Assembly (NCBI GenBank): GCA_030602805.1
Contig: JAUVZA010000006.1
Span: 1-36,748, forward strand
Reading direction: 5' to 3'
DNA length: 36,748 bases
Origin: Dehalococcoidia bacterium
GTDB lineage: Bacteria > Chloroflexota > Dehalococcoidia > Dehalococcoidales > JAUVZA01
Within the stretch, counting starts at the first letter, position 1, and each line of letters begins with the position of its first letter. Below the pieces are notes generated by a model. It saw nothing but the letters and a program-made list of their open reading frames with translations, was not told the DNA's origin and ran no database searches. The translations under genes were made by a program, and so were the position numbers. This document shows positions 2,649 to 21,618 of the stretch, piece by piece.

Positions 2649-3431
2649 TTATGCTAGCTTTTCACTCTCCGAAGAGATTTCTGCTGCAGACTTTTCCCAT
2701 AGCTGCTTATAGGTTATTTCGATTTTTCTCCGAGCAACAGCTTTACCATCGCCACGAATCCACTTATTTATAGAGCCGTGTAAACGAACACACGGGTGCT
2801 TTAGCTTATATCCAAACCTATCTCCATAAATTCGGTCAATTACTGTTTTTTGGCTACTAACTATGTTCTTAGTAGCATCTTGGATGTTATTGTTGTTGCG
2901 CAAAATACCAATGATATTGTCTAGCTTCCTACTGGAAAGCTTTATCTGGTCAGGGACTGGGCCACTTATCCCCAGAGCCTCGGGGCGTATTTCTATATTA
3001 AAACCCTTGCGACCACTGAAAAATATGCGTAGGTCATCTAAAGATAACTCAAGCTCTGTTGTCAGATACGTTACCACCTGTTTGGTTGCACCTTGAGCGT
3101 CATCTAAGTTTTCACTAGAGTTGTCAATGTCCACCAAGAACGGCCCCAAAAAGGCTGGCTTTATTTTCTGGTCGAAGACCTTTAAGGTTCTGTAAACATT
3201 GGTGTTCTTACAAGCACTCCTCCACTTGTTAAGTAAATTGATATGGTAGTATCGAATGTTATTTGAGAGATACCCTTCTTGGTCAAATGAACGATACCAA
3301 CTATCAAGAGGTGGCACATCTTCACCATCAGCTACCTCTTTATGATGCCCTACACCTATTAGTAAATCCTCGATTGGTACATTCCTTGGCAACCACCAAA
3401 AATCACTTATTAAGCTGGGCCCACTATTCAT
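2649..3431 (-). CDS. Archaeo-eukaryotic primase (AEP) superfamily-like protein, altered motif II
   Basis: A 260-residue stand-alone protein with the layout of the AEP fold of small primase subunits and primase-polymerases. Seen in order: motif I DID at residues 101-103 after LGPFLV; the motif II segment FFSGRKGFNIEI at 137-148; a motif III candidate VID ending at D199; then RLHGSIN at 216-222 and a basic segment, which correspond to the family's RLPxSIN...K ending. The usual motif II histidine (SGxKGFH) is asparagine N145 here. No helicase or zinc domain is attached. It is the last gene of a minus-strand set, 4 bases after the PGI/PMI stop, with Shine-Dalgarno ggatagggg. Fold assignment is by motif recognition only; activity is uncertain. 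It could be a degenerate or repurposed primase. Confidence 0.6.
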   Translation of the reverse strand: MNSGPSLISDFWWLPRNVPIEDLLIGVGHHKEVADGEDVPPLDSWYRSFDQEGYLSNNIRYYHINLLNKWRSACKNTNVYRTLKVFDQKIKPAFLGPFLVDIDNSSENLDDAQGATKQVVTYLTTELELSLDDLRIFFSGRKGFNIEIRPEALGISGPVPDQIKLSSRKLDNIIGILRNNNNIQDATKNIVSSQKTVIDRIYGDRFGYKLKHPCVRLHGSINKWIRGDGKAVARRKIEITYKQLWEKSAAEISSESEKLA

Positions 3432-3435
3432 TCCC

Positions 3436-4512
3436 CTATCCTTTAGCCAGCTGCTCTTTTAAGTAGTCTATGGCTTCTACCGGCGTGGGGTCAACCTTAT
3501 ATAAAATTGCCAGGTAGTAGCTAACATAGTCGCCGAATAGCACCAGGCTCATTATTTGGCTCAAGGGGTTAATGCCTTCGCCATCCACAATTTGGTAGCC
3601 AACTTTAGCTTGTCCTAAGAGCTGGCAGGTTAGTTGGTAGCGAAGCTGGATGCGCTTGGATAGATAAGCTGACCGAAGTAGAACTACCACTATTTTGCTG
3701 GCTAACTCCGGGGGGAACTGGTAGCCGACCACAGCGTTGTGGTTGAGTTCAGGGAAAACCTCATAGAAAGCCCAGGCTTTACTATTCTCATTAAGCTGGG
3801 TTTTCCAACGATGCGCTACCTCAGATAATATGTCGGCTCCATATATTATTGGTAAGTGACCGTATAGCCTATTTGCCAGTTGCTTAGCTGGGTTTTGGGG
3901 TAGTAACACGCCCTCATTTATTCTCCGGGATAGTTTTTCTAGAGCCTCAGTTGCCTCCGCCACGTCTGCTGACTTGTCACTGATGAAGCCAAGCCTTTGT
4001 AGAAAACCGAGGATAGGCAGGAAGCTGAAGGGTAGGGCAGCACGAGGTTGAGCCTTATAGTCAAAGCTAAAAACAGGAACATTTCTTTCTTCAGCCATAA
4101 TTTTCAGCTTACCGCCGGTAGTAATTACCAGCTTCTTTGAATCTGTTTCTAACGCTTGTTCGAATGAGGACAGGGTTTCTTCGGTCATTCCTGAGTAGCT
4201 GGAGGCAATAACCAAGGTCTTACTATCAATAAAGGCGGGCAAATTATAGTCACGATGGACAAGGATAGGTAGCTTAGCCTCTGATGTCACTAAATTACTT
4301 ACCAAATCACCACCGATAGCTGAGCCGCCCATGCCCAGGATGACCACTTTACTAACCTCGGGGTAGTCTTGAGGCAGGTCGAAATTCATAGCCATTTGCC
4401 AGGCTTGCTGACAAAGCTGTGGCATTTCATGGAGGTGAATTAGCATACCCTCTGGGTCATATTGCTTATAAACCTGAGGGTCATCTAAGTTAGGATTATT
4501 TATCTGCCTCAC
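3436..4512 (-). CDS. Bifunctional phosphoglucose/phosphomannose isomerase
   Basis: SIS-domain sugar isomerase that interconverts fructose-6-phosphate with glucose-6-phosphate and mannose-6-phosphate. 358 residues, normal for the PGI/PMI family. Seen: the first SIS motif VVILGMGGSAIGGD, the phosphate-binding SSYSGMTEETL, and ELNHNA in the second SIS half. The N-terminus NLDDPQVYKQYDPEGML is conserved in the family, so the GTG at 4512 is favoured even though its purine-rich site (aaaggg) abuts the start. Its leader is very similar to that of the upstream phosphomannomutase gene. The two genes would feed nucleotide-sugar or glycan synthesis. Confidence 0.9.
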   Translation of the reverse strand: MRQINNPNLDDPQVYKQYDPEGMLIHLHEMPQLCQQAWQMAMNFDLPQDYPEVSKVVILGMGGSAIGGDLVSNLVTSEAKLPILVHRDYNLPAFIDSKTLVIASSYSGMTEETLSSFEQALETDSKKLVITTGGKLKIMAEERNVPVFSFDYKAQPRAALPFSFLPILGFLQRLGFISDKSADVAEATEALEKLSRRINEGVLLPQNPAKQLANRLYGHLPIIYGADILSEVAHRWKTQLNENSKAWAFYEVFPELNHNAVVGYQFPPELASKIVVVLLRSAYLSKRIQLRYQLTCQLLGQAKVGYQIVDGEGINPLSQIMSLVLFGDYVSYYLAILYKVDPTPVEAIDYLKEQLAKG

Positions 4513-4554: not shown

Positions 4555-5979
4555 TCAAACCCCAGCTAATTCCTTACCCAGTTCAAGTAGCTTTTCTACC
4601 CGAGTCGGGGTATTGCTTTCGGCATAGATGCGAAGTACTGGCTCGGTTCCCGAAAATCTGATGAGCAGCCAAGCAGTATCAGCCAGAACAAATCGGAAGC
4701 CGTCTCTAGTATCCGTCTCTATCACCTTAACCCCCTCAATGGACTCGGGAAAATTACCTTTAATGCGATTATTTATCGCCTGGCGCTCTTCCTCGGCAAA
4801 CTCTATATCCACGCGGTTAAAGTAATGAGGACCTACTTTACTGTAGAGATAGTCCAAGAGTTCTGAGGGGGTTTTACCTGTCTTGAGCATCAGGTCGAGG
4901 AAATAGAGACCAGCCAGGATGCCATCGCGCTCTGGCATATGACCTCGGAAGCCATAGCCCCCGCTTTCCTCCCCACCTATAAGGGCATTTTCAGCGAGCA
5001 TTATCGGGGCAACATATTTAAAGCCTACCGCTGTCTCATAGACTGGCACCTTAAATATTTCGCCTAAGCGGTAGAGCATACTGGTGGTAGTTATTGTCTT
5101 GACTATGACCCCTCGCTCTCCGCGTATCTCCAGCAGGTAAAGGCAGAGCAAGGCAAAGACCTGGAGTGGGGTTAGAAACATCCCCTTTTCGTCTATGATG
5201 CCAATGCGGTCAGCATCGCCATCGGTAGCTAATCCTACATTAGCCCCTTGTTTTTTAACTGTAGCTGAAAGCTTGGCTAAATTAGCGGCAATTGGCTCAG
5301 GTTGTATTCCTGGAAACAGGGGATTGCGTTCGTTATTTATTTCTATTAGCTCGGTAGCTCCATCGCCTAGCAGCATCTTGAAATAGCCAGCTCCGGCGCC
5401 ATACATAGGGTCAACCACTATCTTCAGTCTGGCTTGACGCAGTTCATTCAGGTTAATCAGCCTGGTTAAGTGGTCTAGGTAAATTGGAGCCAGGTCAAGG
5501 TATTCTACCAATCCTTGCTTTAGGGCTTGGGCCAGCGGCACTTTGTTTATTTTCCCTGTGGTAATGGTGTGAGAAATGTGCTTTTCTATCTCAGTTGTAA
5601 CTTCAGGTGGGGCACTGGAGGCGTATTCAGATTTGTATTTAAAGCCATTCCAGGTAGCTGGATTGTGACTGGCAGTTATGATGATAGCCCCGCCAGCCTG
5701 TTTGGCTAGAATGCCATAGCTTATTACTGGTGTTGGGGTAGCCCTGGGGCAGAGGTAGACCTTTATTCCGTTACCGGCAACTACCTCAGCCGCGGCTGAG
5801 GCAAAGTCCTCGGAGGCAAAGCGGGTATCATAGCCCACAATTAACCCCCGGCTGGCTAGGCCGGTTTGTTTAAGATAGCTAGCTACCCCTTGAGCGCAAG
5901 CCCGCACATTATCAAAGGTAAAATCCTGGGCGATAATCCCCCGCCAGCCGTCGGTACCAAATTTAATCGGACTATCTAT
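4555..5979 (-). CDS. Phosphomannomutase/phosphoglucomutase, start codon disrupted
   Basis: Alpha-D-phosphohexomutase moving phosphate between C6 and C1 of glucose or mannose. Seen: phosphoserine loop TASHNPATWNGFK, metal loop DGDADR, sugar loop GGEESGGYGFRGH, and the C-terminal phosphate loop RFSGTEPVLRIY. The conserved N-terminus IKFGTDGWRGIIAQDF is encoded upstream of the GTG at 5907 used by the ORF track, so the real protein is longer (about 470 residues). Between that motif and an in-frame TAG at 5980-5982 there is no ATG, GTG or TTG. A GTG at 5986-5988, placed like the PGI/PMI start, is followed by AGG then TAG. Either an ATA/ATT start is used, the amber is suppressed, or this is a nonsense allele. 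End coordinate is the first sense codon after the TAG. Confidence 0.85.
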   Translation of the reverse strand: MDSPIKFGTDGWRGIIAQDFTFDNVRACAQGVASYLKQTGLASRGLIVGYDTRFASEDFASAAAEVVAGNGIKVYLCPRATPTPVISYGILAKQAGGAIIITASHNPATWNGFKYKSEYASSAPPEVTTEIEKHISHTITTGKINKVPLAQALKQGLVEYLDLAPIYLDHLTRLINLNELRQARLKIVVDPMYGAGAGYFKMLLGDGATELIEINNERNPLFPGIQPEPIAANLAKLSATVKKQGANVGLATDGDADRIGIIDEKGMFLTPLQVFALLCLYLLEIRGERGVIVKTITTTSMLYRLGEIFKVPVYETAVGFKYVAPIMLAENALIGGEESGGYGFRGHMPERDGILAGLYFLDLMLKTGKTPSELLDYLYSKVGPHYFNRVDIEFAEEERQAINNRIKGNFPESIEGVKVIETDTRDGFRFVLADTAWLLIRFSGTEPVLRIYAESNTPTRVEKLLELGKELAGV

Positions 5980-5984
5980 CTACC

Positions 5985-6112
5985 TCACCCCCTTTAGGTT
6001 TTTATTAGGTAACCCCATCCCCTTTATCCCCTTCCCCTTGATAAGAGGAAGGGGAAGACAGTTTCTATAGAGGGGCTTCGCCCCTCTTAGACTCCCCTTA
6101 TTTATCAACAGA
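5985..6112. repeat. Dispersed GC-rich hairpin repeat, copy 1
   Basis: Intergenic element with an AACCCCATCCCCT block, a CCCCTTCC/GGAAGGGG inverted repeat, and a hairpin agaggggc-ttc-gcccctct followed by ttagactcccctt. The same order of blocks occurs at 21490-21618. It carries no coding potential and sits in the promoter/leader zone of the phosphomannomutase gene, so it may also act as a terminator or RNA-processing structure. Confidence 0.7.
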
Positions 6113-6127
6113 GTAGAGAGGTATCCC

Positions 6128-6490
6128 TTAGCAATCCTTATTATAGACCTCTATCCCAGAAAGCCCTGGAACAGGGCCTTCTCCTATACGGAACGTACGA
6201 ATTTGTTCTGGCACGGCAGCGGCCAAAAGTCCCATACAAATGCGGGCTATGCGATGATTGAAGAACTCTTCAGGCAGGTTCTGCTTTGTAAGAATACCGT
6301 GCTGCATTGCTAGGCGATAACACCATAGCAGATAGTATCTACTGGGATTGGCTCTCCTGCCTTTTATTTCGACCAAATCTTCTGACACAGTTATTACCCG
6401 ATTTGGTCTCCTTCGCTGAGGAGTAAGTACAACTTGTCCCTCCAAGTTATGCATTTGACTCCACAATTGTTCATCCGTTAAGGCTATCAA
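6128..6490 (-). CDS. Hypothetical protein (orphan downstream of metK)
   Basis: 120 residues, not recognised. It is mixed charged/hydrophobic with no signal peptide or membrane segment. The N-terminal half (LEGQVVLTPQRRRPNRVITV) looks like a small beta-rich segment, followed by helical stretches and a C-terminus GEGPVPGLSGIEVY. The TTG at 6490 has a strong Shine-Dalgarno (aaggagg, 6 bases away) that overlaps the metK stop region; the gap to metK is 11 bases. This supports real, co-transcribed expression in an ahcY-metK-orphan unit. No function is assigned. Confidence 0.7.
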   Translation of the reverse strand: MIALTDEQLWSQMHNLEGQVVLTPQRRRPNRVITVSEDLVEIKGRRANPSRYYLLWCYRLAMQHGILTKQNLPEEFFNHRIARICMGLLAAAVPEQIRTFRIGEGPVPGLSGIEVYNKDC

Positions 6491-7732: not shown

Positions 7733-9001
<1,269 letters not shown>

Positions 9002-9031
9002 CTACTCCTTAATTTGTCTAAAATCTCTCTT

Positions 9032-9895
9032 CTATCGCCTGAACTGCTTGGCAACATAATTGGGTATGTCCAATGTGCCCATAAGGAGCGGTTTTTGATG
9101 GCAATCACTACCCCCGGTCATCACCAGACCATGCTTCCTGGCAAACTCGATGTAGAAAACAGTGGTCTTCGCATCGTGTCTTGGATGCCAGCACTCAACA
9201 CCATCTATATAGTCTAGCATATATTCCTTGATAATCCTTGCCTGTCCATTCAAATCAGGCGTTATGCTTACCAGAGAAGTCCCATTCGGGTCATTGGGGT
9301 GAGCATGTATGAGTATACCACCGGCGTTCCTGACTAATTTTGACGCTTCAGCCAGGGAAAGCGGGTATTTAGGGACATCGCACTTAACCAGATATTTATC
9401 AAATGCCTCTTGCTTATCCCTGACAATCCGTTTTGCTATCAGGTAGTTGGCTATATGGGGTCGACCAAAGGCGCCATCAACACGAGCCTGTATCTTCTTG
9501 AGGTCTTCCTCGGTGAATCTTTTGATATTCTCTTTATCAAACTCAACGTTCAATCTCTCTAAGATTTGGCGCGCCCTTGTTTCTCTATGCTCTCTTATCA
9601 ATTGAAGTTTATTCTTTAGCGCTTGGTTGTTGATATCATACTGGTATCCCAGGAAATCCAAGGAGATAGATTTGCTACCAGGATACTGGAATGTTACATT
9701 CAATTCTACCCCGGGAATGTAGGTTATGCCATACTCTCTGGCCAGAGCGATTGCCCTTTCCTGGCAGCCTATGGAGTCGTGGTCAGTTATCGACGTTAAA
9801 TCGATATTTCTCCTTTTTGCCTCTTTGAAAACCTCTTCAATAGACAGATTACCATCGGAACCGGTTCTGGTATGGATGTGTAAATCTATTTTCAT
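9032..9895 (-). CDS. PHP-domain metal-dependent phosphoesterase
   Basis: Polymerase/histidinol phosphatase-type phosphoesterase, 287 residues, related to enzymes that hydrolyse nucleotide or oligoribonucleotide phosphates. Seen: the metal motif DLHIHTRTGSDG at the start, ITDHDS, GVELNV, IHAHPNDPNG and the final GGSDCHQKP. The start is set at the ATG at 9895. The ORF track begins 29 codons upstream inside a 69-base inverted-repeat element (9927-9995), so that N-terminus is an artefact. Upstream is a P-loop kinase on the same strand. The substrate cannot be read from sequence. Confidence 0.88.
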   Translation of the reverse strand: MKIDLHIHTRTGSDGNLSIEEVFKEAKRRNIDLTSITDHDSIGCQERAIALAREYGITYIPGVELNVTFQYPGSKSISLDFLGYQYDINNQALKNKLQLIREHRETRARQILERLNVEFDKENIKRFTEEDLKKIQARVDGAFGRPHIANYLIAKRIVRDKQEAFDKYLVKCDVPKYPLSLAEASKLVRNAGGILIHAHPNDPNGTSLVSITPDLNGQARIIKEYMLDYIDGVECWHPRHDAKTTVFYIEFARKHGLVMTGGSDCHQKPLLMGTLDIPNYVAKQFRR

Positions 9896-10621: not shown

Positions 10622-11336
10622 AAAACGGGCAGCTATCTCTTATGCATTCTTTGTTTAAAGAATTAAACTCACATTTTACATTTTTATTCATATTTTCTAT
10701 ACTAAAGTTCTCGCTTAAAAAATCTATTGCTTGGATTATCGATAAAAATGCAGTTCTTTTACAACATCTGGGTCCGCCTACATTTGCTATAGAAAACAAG
10801 CTCTTCGCCGTCATCATATTACTCAATTTCCATTCGTGTTTAGATAATGGAGTTGCCCCGGTAATCAAACTGATAAAAATACCAGTACCCACCGCGGCCC
10901 CACAATCACCGTAGTAGCCACAGAATCCGCCTAAAATGTTTTTAGCTCTTTTTTCTGATTCTTCTATCTTTTCTGTCTTTTTCTCCTCATCTTTTTTAAG
11001 GTTGTAGTAAGCAGAAAGCAAAACTGCGGGTACTAAGAAATGATGCTCTGGTCCGTGCATTTTAACCTGCGGGTTTCTCATTAGGATTAAAGCCGTTACC
11101 AGAGGATCTTCTGATTGGCTATTAATACAGAACTGCTTTATTAGCTTGCTGGCTGGTAAATTGTGGCAGTTATCGCAGATAAAGTGTCCTTTTGCACATT
11201 TTACGTTTGACTCGTAAACCTTTTTACAATAATAGCACTCTGATTTATTAGAGTTAGTACTATAAACCAAATCACTGCCGCACACGAGGCAGTTTGTTTT
11301 GTAACCCGTTGCATTCATATCCAATTTTTCCGACAC
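10605..11336 (-). CDS. DUF5714-family cysteine-rich protein
   Basis: About 243 residues. The N-terminus has zinc-finger-like pairs (CLVCG, CYYCKK, CAKGHFICDNC). The core carries the DUF5714 hallmarks MHGPEHHFLVPAVLL, GGFCGYYGDCGAAVGTGIF, ITGATPLS and GGPRCCKR. Many conserved Cys and His suggest metal or Fe-S binding. The family occurs mainly in anaerobes and has no established function that I know. The start is placed at the GTG at 11336, preceded by gaggag, rather than the TTG at 11351. It overlaps the following kinase gene by 17 bases. Confidence 0.8.
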   Translation of the reverse strand: MSEKLDMNATGYKTNCLVCGSDLVYSTNSNKSECYYCKKVYESNVKCAKGHFICDNCHNLPASKLIKQFCINSQSEDPLVTALILMRNPQVKMHGPEHHFLVPAVLLSAYYNLKKDEEKKTEKIEESEKRAKNILGGFCGYYGDCGAAVGTGIFISLITGATPLSKHEWKLSNMMTAKSLFSIANVGGPRCCKRTAFLSIIQAIDFLSENFSIENMNKNVKCEFNSLNKECIRDSCPFYDRRR

Positions 11337-11381
11337 TTTTTCTCCTCGCAATGGTCTGGATGAAGCCAGGGTTTGCTAATC

Positions 11382-11425
11382 TGATTTATTTTGACCTATT
11401 CTATACATCATACCTACGATTTGGC
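11382..11425. repeat. Direct repeat, copy B, after the DPH6-like gene
   Basis: About 43 bases nearly matching 12090-12133 (minus-strand core TATAGAAT[A/G]GGTCAAAATAAA preceded by AATCGTA). The sequence begins 4 bases after the DPH6-like stop codon, so the DPH6-like gene is bracketed by the two copies. Confidence 0.55.
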
Positions 11426-11428
11426 AAT

Positions 11429-12082
11429 TTATAGTGAATATTTAAGGGTATCTAGGAACCAGTGGTCATCTCTTGTAATCGGCTGGCTCTTGGTTATTTT
11501 TATTTTCTTCCTGAACACGGGACCATCGGTTACAAAGGTGTGGTATTCACCATTTTCCCCACAAAGGTCAATATTATTGTCTTTTAGATGGCTCAAAAAT
11601 TCTCTACCTACCTTCCGACCCATCCATTTATCGTCAAATAGGTCGGATTTAGCACTAACTATCGTTGCCTCAAAACCAGCATCTATAAAGTCAAGGAGAA
11701 CTCTTTCTGGGTCTTGCCCCCAAAGCGGCTCAATTGCTTCAATGCCTAATTCTCGGCAAACCCTTTCTACCCAATCCTTATGCTCTTGTAGATATATATC
11801 ACCAAAAACCATGCCGGTTACACCATTAGGAATCAAGCTTCTCACCGCGTCTTTGAACTCCTGTTCATATCCATTCCAAGTAGTTTCTTTTTGCAATAGG
11901 GGGATGCCGATTGCCTCAGCTTGTAATTGAATTAATTTAGCTTCCGTTCCATGAAAACTTACCCTTTTAAACTCTTTAGAAATAAAATTCAACAGGTGAG
12001 ATACATTGTATCCCTCACGGATTGCCTGGTAACAGGCGAAACAACTATCCTTACCACCGCTCCAAGATGAAATATAGCTCAT
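11429..12082 (-). CDS. DPH6-like ATP pyrophosphatase (COG2102)
   Basis: 217-residue N-type ATP pyrophosphatase. Seen: PP-loop SWSGGKDSCFA near residue 8, and GENGEYHTFVTDGPVF in the C-terminal half, the signature of the diphthine-ammonia ligase family. In archaea and eukaryotes this family completes diphthamide on EF2; bacteria lack diphthamide, so the bacterial role is unknown, and an amidation or thiolation of another substrate is inference. ATG at 12082 with aaagg upstream. Lies between an APH-like kinase and DUF5714 on the same strand and is flanked by direct repeats. Confidence 0.88.
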   Translation of the reverse strand: MSYISSWSGGKDSCFACYQAIREGYNVSHLLNFISKEFKRVSFHGTEAKLIQLQAEAIGIPLLQKETTWNGYEQEFKDAVRSLIPNGVTGMVFGDIYLQEHKDWVERVCRELGIEAIEPLWGQDPERVLLDFIDAGFEATIVSAKSDLFDDKWMGRKVGREFLSHLKDNNIDLCGENGEYHTFVTDGPVFRKKIKITKSQPITRDDHWFLDTLKYSL

Positions 12083-18656: not shown

Positions 18657-20474
18657 TTAATAAATAGCGTCATAAATTTGAGTAAGCTTAGTTTTTACCT
18701 CAGGATCAATCTGTTCAGGCTTCATCTCCTTGATTACCTTCTCTGCCAAATTCTTTTTCCACCAGTCCCCATTTAGAAGTTCACTAAGCTTTTTAACTGT
18801 TTCTCCTTCTTTTATCTCATCTGGGATTTCATCTTCTCTTCTGTTCTTCTTCGGAGCAAATTCCCTAGCGAATTCCAGAACCAAGTCACGTGGATAGTAA
18901 TCCTCAATGTCTCTTCGTTTGAGAGTGAGGATGTTTTCATCAGGGACTATTCCTTCAACAGCTTTTCTCACACTATCCTTAGCGTTTTTGTCATATAGGG
19001 TATAATTCCTGAAACAGGTTCCCTGTATCACCTCGGATAGTAAGTACTCCTTGATATTGCCAGCACCTTTAACATCGAGGACGAGAATAGAGGCTCTCTC
19101 GAACGGTTTCCCTATCTTCCCAGCCCAGTCTGTATAAACATCTTTGTCTGTTATCCCTTCTACAACTAGAATTCCATTGGCAAGGAGAAGATCTGAAGGT
19201 TTTATCCCTAAATCCCTAAATAGGTGTAGCAAGTTTTCCTTATTGAGAAGTTCGACTTGCGAGTATTTTGGGCCAGTCTCCTTGTCTTGTTTTAGATAGA
19301 CATAAAAGACATTTTCCTCCATATTTATAAATTCATCAATGAATATATGAGAGTGACTAGCTATGAGATATTGATGAGCGAAGGTTCGCTGATTCTCCCT
19401 TAAGAACCTTATAAACTTCCTTTGTAATTCGGGGTGAAAATGAGCTTCTGGTTCTTCTATTAGAATTACCTTATTTGAGCCATAGCGGACAATTTCTGCG
19501 GCAAGAGCAAGCATCTGCTCCACGCTGGAGCCAAAGTGACCAAGAGGTAATACTAGGTCTCCTATTGCTATCTCTATACGTTTCGCTCCAGTTTTTCCAG
19601 GAAAGCGAAATTCAATGCTTTGCCCTTCATTAGTGAAGATGAGCTCGTTTATGAATCTTTGCACCCTAGAAAACATCCTGTGCTCGTCCTGTCTACCATT
19701 TTTTAGAGTGGCTAACACTTCGGAGACCTCGTCACCAACTGGTTCAATTTCACGAATAGCAGGAATATTTACGAGTAGCTTCTCGAAGACTTTATCGTAA
19801 AGCTGGCTTATAAAGCTACGGACTGCCTTAAGTACAGGCAAAAAATCCGCTTTCGTTTGGCTCTCATCAACATTCCTGTAGTGAAGTATTTTCCAGACTT
19901 GCTCATCGCGAAAAGGTCCTGGTCTAAGAGCTAATATCTTTTTCGTCTCTCTGTCAAATAGGATGGGGTCTTTCTTATAGGCCTCGTGGTCGTTAGGTAT
20001 CTCGACCTTGGTAATCGTTGACAGGGGGTGTTCTGCCTTATATTCGATAAACCCCGTTATCTTAAGCACTTTGGGCCAGTCGTCTTTGCGTTCGAACATG
20101 AATGAGATGGGATTTCTATCTTCATCATGTTTGTAAGGCGGTATGTTTAAAGTTGTCTGGTCAGCCTGTTCAATTTCGAGCGAGAAGGAAAAATCGATTT
20201 TCCCTGATGGCTCTTGAGCAAAAATCCAGTCCTTGAAATAGCGCGGCTCTGTTTCAAGGACTAGGGGAAGGTCTTGTAGAGATTCGGTACCACTTTCTCG
20301 AACTGAGCGCAGCATGATCTTTAAAACTTCCATGAGTTTTAACACATTGGATTTTCCAGCATTATTACTCCCTATAAATAGATTGAAATCGCCTGATTGG
20401 ATATGATTATCCTTGTTCAAGCCCTTGTCGCCGAAGCTTAGGCAATTCTTAATTGACAATTCTCGGATTTTCAT
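18657..20474 (-). CDS. OLD-type ATP-dependent nuclease (AAA ATPase + TOPRIM)
   Basis: 605 residues. SMC/ABC-like ATPase: N-terminal MKIRELSIKNCLSFGD, Walker A IGSNNAGKSN at 34-43, then signature-like GSSVEQMLALAAEIV, Walker B KVILIEEPEAHFHPELQ and H-loop ASHSH. A TOPRIM domain follows (ILVVEGITDKDVY), but the second acidic motif is only YDKN, weaker than usual. OLD proteins are ATPases/nucleases, often part of phage defence (for example Gabija GajA), but no partner such as a UvrD-like helicase is beside it. The ATG overlaps the mtnA stop (ATGA) and mtnP follows 12 bases later, so it is built into the methionine-salvage operon. Confidence 0.85.
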   Translation of the reverse strand: MKIRELSIKNCLSFGDKGLNKDNHIQSGDFNLFIGSNNAGKSNVLKLMEVLKIMLRSVRESGTESLQDLPLVLETEPRYFKDWIFAQEPSGKIDFSFSLEIEQADQTTLNIPPYKHDEDRNPISFMFERKDDWPKVLKITGFIEYKAEHPLSTITKVEIPNDHEAYKKDPILFDRETKKILALRPGPFRDEQVWKILHYRNVDESQTKADFLPVLKAVRSFISQLYDKVFEKLLVNIPAIREIEPVGDEVSEVLATLKNGRQDEHRMFSRVQRFINELIFTNEGQSIEFRFPGKTGAKRIEIAIGDLVLPLGHFGSSVEQMLALAAEIVRYGSNKVILIEEPEAHFHPELQRKFIRFLRENQRTFAHQYLIASHSHIFIDEFINMEENVFYVYLKQDKETGPKYSQVELLNKENLLHLFRDLGIKPSDLLLANGILVVEGITDKDVYTDWAGKIGKPFERASILVLDVKGAGNIKEYLLSEVIQGTCFRNYTLYDKNAKDSVRKAVEGIVPDENILTLKRRDIEDYYPRDLVLEFAREFAPKKNRREDEIPDEIKEGETVKKLSELLNGDWWKKNLAEKVIKEMKPEQIDPEVKTKLTQIYDAIY

Positions 20475-21499
20475 TTCAGCTCCTCCCCATACGGCTCTTT
20501 TATTATACCCCTTTCGGTGATGATGGTGGTTATGTACTTATGGGGGGTAACATCAAAGGCGGGGTTGGCAACGTTTATGCCCTCGGGGGCAATGCTTACC
20601 CCCTGAATGTGAGTTACTTCGTTGGGGTTTCGCTGCTCAATGGGGATTTCATCCCCCGAGGCTAGAGACAGGTCAATGGTGGTGGTGGGGGCGGCGACAT
20701 AGAAGGGGATGCCATTCTCCTTAGCCAGAACTGCCAGACTATAGGTGCCAATCTTGTTGGCAGTATCACCATTGGCGGCAATGCGGTCGGCACCAACAAT
20801 GACGCAGCTAACCTCTCCCCGGCTCATAAAATAACCAGCCATTGAGTCGGTGATGAGGGTAAACGGGATATTAGCCCTCTTTAGCTCCCAGGTGGTAAGG
20901 CGTGCCCCCTGGAGCAGAGGGCGGGTCTCGGTGGCAAGAACCTTTATATTTTTGCTCTGCTCTTTTGCCCGCTTAATTACCCCCAGGGCAGTGCCGTAGC
21001 CGGCGGTAGCCAGCGTCCCGGTATTACAATGGGTCAGGATGCTAAAGCCATCCTGAATTAACTCAGCACCAAGCTGGCTGAGCTTTTTGGTTGCCTCAAC
21101 CTCTTCAGAGTGTATTTTAACTGCTTCGTCAATAAGTGCTTTTTTAGTCTGTTCTATATCTTCACCCACAGCGGCTACTTGCTGCATTCGGTCAATAGCC
21201 CGGAAAAGATTTTTGGCGGTGGGTCTGGTAGCGGCAAGGGTCTGGCTGATGCCTTGGAGCCTTCTTAGAAACTCATCTCTTGACTTAGCCTCAATTTCTA
21301 AGGCACCTAAAGCCACTCCATAACTTCCAGCTACTCCAATGGCTGGAGCCCCCCTAATTTTCAATCCTGTGATGGCTGAGGCTATAGCCTGGTAGTTGTT
21401 AAGCTCCAGATAAACCTCTTCTTGGGGGAGCCTGGTCTGGTCAAGGATTCTTACCCTGTTACCCAGCCATTCTATCGGTGGATTATTTATCTTTTTCAA
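20471..21499 (-). CDS. mtnA: S-methyl-5-thioribose-1-phosphate isomerase
   Basis: Converts methylthioribose-1-phosphate to methylthioribulose-1-phosphate after MtnP. 342 residues. Seen: KIRGAPAIGVAGSYGVAL, catalytic cysteine C158 in THCNTGTLATAG, catalytic aspartate D238 in VGADRIAANGDTANKIGT. The TTG at 21499 lies right at the edge of the dispersed repeat copy 2, whose gggatagggtt serves as the only purine-rich site. First gene of a minus-strand unit mtnA-OLD-mtnP-metE-like. The next salvage enzyme (aldolase or dehydratase) is not in the window. Confidence 0.95.
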   Translation of the reverse strand: MKKINNPPIEWLGNRVRILDQTRLPQEEVYLELNNYQAIASAITGLKIRGAPAIGVAGSYGVALGALEIEAKSRDEFLRRLQGISQTLAATRPTAKNLFRAIDRMQQVAAVGEDIEQTKKALIDEAVKIHSEEVEATKKLSQLGAELIQDGFSILTHCNTGTLATAGYGTALGVIKRAKEQSKNIKVLATETRPLLQGARLTTWELKRANIPFTLITDSMAGYFMSRGEVSCVIVGADRIAANGDTANKIGTYSLAVLAKENGIPFYVAAPTTTIDLSLASGDEIPIEQRNPNEVTHIQGVSIAPEGINVANPAFDVTPHKYITTIITERGIIKEPYGEELK

Positions 21500-21618
21500 C
21501 CCTATCCCCTGTGTCCCCTTCCCCTTCAGAGGGGCAGGGAATTAGTTATATTAAGAGAGGCTTCGCCTCTCTTAAACTCTCCTTCCTTCAAATTCCATAA
21601 TTTTTGGGAGGGGGTCCC
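21490..21618. repeat. Dispersed GC-rich hairpin repeat, copy 2
   Basis: Blocks in the same order as copy 1: AACCCTATCCCCT, tccccttcccctt, a hairpin aagagaggc-ttc-gcctctctt, then aaactctccttcc. It extends into the mtnA start region on one side and toward the methyltransferase-like gene on the other. No coding potential is seen. Confidence 0.7.

Follow-up and report, generated by a model that had tools for sequence, protein, structure and literature searches.

Introduction

Some dispersed bacterial repeats and MITEs, such as Correia elements and Rickettsia palindromic elements, provide genes with regulatory signals or with coding sequence. On the side of translation initiation, the AUU codon of Escherichia coli infC and pcnB is a weak start that is read by the ordinary initiator tRNA and discriminated against by IF3. 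Bacteria hardly ever begin translation at AUA. AUA starts have been documented for infC, ccpN and citZ of Staphylococcus aureus, in a report that also refers to the AUU starts of E. coli infC and pcnB, and an extended Shine-Dalgarno (SD) sequence was described as directing the choice of AUA in S. aureus infC and ccpN (PMC13009471). These AUA starts are conserved in the lineage and are predicted to give lower, condition-dependent expression; in poor medium AUA reporters yielded about 10% of what AUG gave, and in rich medium ccpN reached up to 30% (PMC13009471).

Here we analysed a stretch of 36,748 nucleotides from a Dehalococcoidia MAG (the window) in which a phosphohexomutase gene has an in-frame TAG where its start would be expected. 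Judging from sequence comparisons, we consider it very probable that this gene starts at AUA behind a strong SD. The SD and the ATA lie at the end of a dispersed repeat, and in related genomes this module stands in front of many genes that have nothing else in common.

Results

The phosphohexomutase gene has a strong SD and no canonical start ahead of its N-terminal motif

The gene encodes a phosphomannomutase/phosphoglucosamine-mutase-like phosphohexomutase (PMM; Table 1). The protein reached the cut-off of none of the NCBIfam families, and "PMM" is used as a label that leaves the exact substrate unsettled. The minus strand reads CTA AAG GGG GTG AGG TAG ATA GAT AGT CCG ATT AAA TTT GGT ACC GAC GGC TGG CGG, with the N-terminal motif IKFGTDGWRG downstream of the leader, which confirmed the observation of an earlier note on this sequence that no ATG, GTG or TTG follows the TAG up to GTDGWRG. 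A canonical start does not appear until the GTG at 5907, 24 codons past the ATA, and a mechanical ORF search consequently returned 4555..5907, a protein of 450 aa without the motif, as against 474 aa when read from the ATA. Alignment of the longer protein with PDB 1tuo begins at residue 2, indicating that the first 24 residues are part of the protein.

Pairing of the leader AAAGGGGGUGA with the anti-SD sequence, which was read from 18 relatives and not from this MAG, gave 11 paired positions including one G-U, a free energy of −16.7 kcal/mol and a 5-nt spacer to the ATA, and an SD of this strength was found in 1.2% of 248 ORFs of the same genome. The ATT four codons past the ATA (ATT AAA TTT GGT) is a documented rare start codon at a conserved residue, yet it lies at the wrong spacing, 17 nt from the SD end, varies among ATT, ATA and ATC over orthologs and is internal in all orthologs that start normally; initiation there is therefore very unlikely. 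AUA at 5979–5977 is the most likely PMM start.

Table 1 Features of the PMM and PGI/PMI genes and their leaders in the window
Feature	Position	Strand	Remark
Phosphomannomutase/phosphoglucosamine-mutase-like phosphohexomutase (PMM)	4555..5979	-	474 aa read from ATA
Proposed PMM start codon ATA	5977..5979	-	No canonical start from upstream stop to motif; at or beside the slot that holds ATG in distant orthologs
In-frame TAG abutting the ATA	5980..5982	-	Read as part of the recurring leader, not as a sense codon; recurs in 8 other PMM and 4 PGI genes
Extended Shine-Dalgarno AAAGGGGGTGA	5985..5995	-	5-nt spacer to ATA; 11 paired positions with anti-SD
GTG picked by mechanical ORF search	5905..5907	-	Drops GTDGWRG motif
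Dispersed-repeat copy: two hairpins and tail with SD, ATA and first codons	5969..6105	-	Genome search, alignment, fold
Bifunctional phosphoglucose/phosphomannose isomerase (PGI/PMI)	3436..4503	-	
Probable PGI/PMI start ATA	4501..4503	-	Same module with CAG replacing TAG; four relatives obligate ATA, ATG in L070 and L119

TAG-ATA recurs in relatives and the codons behind it are under purifying selection

Scanning genome contigs yielded 80 loci, mostly from Dehalococcoidia or other Chloroflexota MAGs, every genome compared being a MAG. No in-frame ATG, GTG or TTG was present between the upstream in-frame stop and FGTDGWR in 20 of 83 distinct PMM orthologs, and 17 of these 20 carried ATA shortly after an SD, at or beside the slot that holds ATG in distant orthologs (L082, L083 and L121). 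As for the remaining three, L072 has ATT and L062 has GTA in the ATA slot, both without a canonical alternative, and L091 is unclear.

The TAG itself belongs to a recurring leader, GGGGGTGAGGTAG, and directly precedes the ATA in PMM of eight other genomes, seven of which share GGGGGTGAGG TAG ATA (L063, L066, L067, L068, L071, L119 and L137), with a close variant in L086. The earlier note had proposed that a single C-to-T change produced the TAG, and had listed a recent nonsense mutation or a sequencing error among the options. The PMM TAG does differ by a single base from the CAG found in the PGI leader; however, the recurrence of TAG-ATA in PMM of these eight genomes and in PGI/PMI of four refutes both the substitution and the recent mutation and excludes the sequencing error. 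Comparison with close relatives had also been called for, and in these eight genomes it returned TAG-ATA itself, with ATG in the slot in the distant orthologs. Together with an intact frame of 474 codons and the low pN/pS given below, this leaves a recent pseudogene or a sequencing error with next to no probability. The TAG is a component of the leader; it is not an error, and it does not serve as a sense codon.

Translation could instead begin at the GTG at 5988–5986, with the TAG read through or suppressed; GTG commonly serves as a start codon, and nine PMM genes keep the register GTG AGG TAG ATA. Against this, L065, L073 and L088 have the GTG in another frame and L089, L093, L103 and L180 lack it, the last four having divergent leaders that keep an SD-like stretch, while the ATA is kept in all seven. 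Moreover, the GTG falls within the SD helix and is missing from the infC leader, where ATA is present, and no amber-reading tRNA was found among those scanned (part of 46 tRNAs). Amber readthrough, likewise an option of the earlier note, is thus very unlikely.

ATA initiation, by comparison, was listed there as one option and is backed by the orthologs, the SD and the coding constraint on the codons that follow. Over 20 codons from FGTDGWR on in the 17 obligate-ATA genomes, pS was 0.58 and pN 0.029 (ratio 0.049), and third positions held 1106 of 1260 differences. Since 18 of the 20 tested codons precede the first canonical start, such strong purifying selection requires translation to begin upstream of that start. 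The type of start is labile: a tree built from 66 PMM proteins shows 15 to 17 changes.

The neighbouring PGI/PMI gene has the same leader

The parallel leader GTG-AGG-CAG-ATA that the earlier note had pointed out in the PGI/PMI gene is real and lies at 4512, where the sequence reads GGGGTGAGGCAG ATA. Searching the whole window for GGGGTGAGGYAGATA with at most two mismatches gave 3 occurrences against 0.13 expected, and the genome contains the looser tail pattern GGGGTGAGGYNNATA 30 times but its reversed control 0 times. The likeness between the PMM and PGI/PMI leaders is not due to chance. In relatives, PGI/PMI follows GGGGGTGAGG TAG ATA without a canonical alternative in L062, L313 (= L064), L315 (= L128) and L318 (= L066), while in L070 the same leader is followed by ATG at this very codon, as is a TTA variant of the leader in L119. 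ATA at 4503 is the probable start of PGI/PMI.

The leader belongs to a dispersed repeat

Using the leader as a query against its own genome (1.5 Mb) returned 69 matches, corresponding to at least 40 places after palindromic self-matches were set aside. The aligned copies have two hairpins in common, and some carry a tail ending in GGGGGTGAGGTNNATAAAYAAT. The terminus also encodes first codons, with the consensus ATA AAY AAY (Met-Asn-Asn). With many dispersed, mostly intergenic copies and internal hairpins, the repeat resembles MITEs.

The PMM leader itself folds into two hairpins, and more stably than shuffled sequences (z −2.5), and it matches the GA-cis RNA model (RF02987) over its full length, with an E value of 0.0027 and 25.5 bits, below the gathering score of 34.7. 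A leader that is chiefly a structured regulatory RNA, with the start codon secondary, would account for both observations; however, none of 20 further repeat copies matched even at E 0.5, the hairpins are generic, and several ATA leaders are without them. We judged the GA-cis match to be chance and hold this explanation to be highly improbable.

In L073, repeat copies with the first PMM bases lie at 1210–1280 and 2967–3030; only one precedes the gene and the other is non-coding. The pair reads as a local duplication that took gene sequence along, and since the second copy includes the first PMM bases, copies of the repeat can carry gene sequence. Elsewhere in the window, mtnA (20471–21545, minus strand) has an SD and a TTG start that seemingly derive from a further member of this repeat family, and an ORF of 120 aa without an NCBIfam match lies between metK and the repeat (6128–6490, minus strand).

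The module precedes unrelated genes in the ATA frame

The exact 16-mer terminus GGGGGTGAGGTAGATA, which includes TAG-ATA, was present in 25 of 61 genomes searched, and its reversed control gave 0. Among 102 distinct module copies, ORFs of at least 100 codons were open in frames 0, +1 and +2 in 34, 1 and 7 cases, frame 0 being that of the ATA, and collapsing these to gene families left 21, 1 and 6 (binomial p = 8e−6). Of the 102 copies, 59 precede no long ORF, and the presence of the module therefore does not always mark the start of a gene. Because the TAG directly abuts the ATA, no start further upstream is possible in the ATA frame.

The families that lack an early canonical start include PMM, PGI, GatA, IspD, CobU, NadC, HisI, the beta subunit of a fumarase and a subunit of an iron-sulphur oxidoreductase, and for GatA, IspD, CobU, NadC, HisI and fumarase beta the profile match already begins ahead of the first canonical start. 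Some other frame-0 families, named from their translations as GrpE-like, PanC-like, CarA-like and IspG-like, are ambiguous, having an ATG two to four codons past the ATA, and the TsaD-like gene in L390 (also named from its translation) more probably uses a later ATG. The recognisable genes in the +2 frame have their own ATG (L084, L267, L367 and L373).

A version of the module with ATG was found at 11 places, mostly in front of genes, and is much rarer than the ATA version. After the same leader, NadC (L354/L420) and a PAC2-like protein (L358/L421) have either ATA or ATG, depending on the genome. Unrelated module-headed proteins have Ile/Met-Asn-Asn N-termini in common, matching the repeat tail.

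Initiator tRNA, infC and AUA use genome-wide

The initiator tRNA is of the ordinary CAU type, and a dedicated initiator with a UAU anticodon was not found among the tRNAs typed (part of 46). The IF3 gene, infC, starts with ATA in 17 of 18 Dehalococcoidia genomes read (L282–L310, with L286 from the genome studied here), the exception being ATC in L289, and 11 of the 17 have no canonical alternative.

Starts were further surveyed by pattern searches and, for four genomes, in about 0.4 Mb of sequence each. A genome-wide shift to AUA starts was rejected: a loose SD criterion revealed no in-frame enrichment of ATA codons in the genome of the window, and ATA stood opposite a canonical start in only 8 of 298 ortholog pairs, of which a TTG or GTG next to the ATA accounts for some. 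The survey also turned up isolated odd starts. A HIT-family-like protein of G062 (L247, reverse strand, ORF 8887–9376) has ATA after AAAGGAGAATGAA and no repeat, and its G064 ortholog (L280) has ATG at the same place. In L145, from the genome of the window, a methyltransferase-like ORF (11241–11898, reverse strand) has no ATG, GTG or TTG in the first 32 codons past the in-frame stop, its early start candidates being ATA codons. After an SD-like stretch, G062_255 has ACG where three orthologs have ATG, which may reflect either non-canonical initiation or an error in the MAG.

Discussion

We propose that the unusually strong extended SD (AAAGGGGGUGA) 5 nt upstream makes initiation at the PMM AUA possible, and that initiator fMet-tRNA would read this codon despite the third-position mismatch. 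Both elements are part of the end of a dispersed repeat, a copy of which presumably arrived at the front of the PMM gene, and this repeat end contributes the first codons as well. The expected outcome, by analogy with the S. aureus reporters and with AUA as the start of infC here, is reduced and probably IF3-sensitive translation of PMM. The sequence, its conservation, the frame bias, the purifying selection and the strength of the SD are observed, whereas initiation at this AUA, the level of expression, the control by IF3 and the way in which the repeat came to the gene are inferred.

More broadly, the repeat may act as a mobile weak translation-initiation module that, once ahead of a gene, takes over with its own SD, AUA and first codons. 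Combined with an AUA-initiated infC, this might place a housekeeping set (PMM, PGI, gatA, ispD, nadC, hisI and others) under the level of IF3, as an AUA regulon across a Dehalococcoidia lineage, a proposal that we put forward tentatively and hold to be possible rather than probable.

Because the probable AUA start lies in a repeat-borne ribosome-binding module, standard gene finding very probably misplaces the starts of module-headed genes; calls limited to ATG, GTG and TTG shorten such proteins and may delete conserved motifs, as with the 450-aa PMM. If confirmed, AUA initiation would be a recurrent trait of a bacterial lineage, beyond a curiosity of one or two genes, and a dispersed repeat would be shown to supply complete translation starts to housekeeping genes. 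These genes would then also offer natural test cases for regulation through IF3 and for the extent to which a strong SD offsets a weak start. AUA starts as such are already known; that a dispersed repeat brings them to many genes within a single lineage appears to be new. Literature searches for a repeat-borne AUA module or repeat-borne start codons gave nothing relevant, which is weak evidence given that subscription papers were mostly outside their coverage.

Compared with the described systems, the candidate AUA start of PMM resembles those of S. aureus infC, ccpN and citZ and shares the extended SD with infC and ccpN. Unlike in S. aureus, the AUA here sits in a dispersed repeat before about 20 unrelated gene families, in Chloroflexota, and is predicted from sequence. 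E. coli infC and pcnB likewise have a weak start, but there AUU occurs in single genes whereas here AUA occurs in a repeated module. The repeat resembles Correia and Rickettsia palindromic elements, as compared by copies and hairpins alone, in being short, structured, dispersed and mostly intergenic, and differs from them in supplying an SD, a start codon and the first codons.
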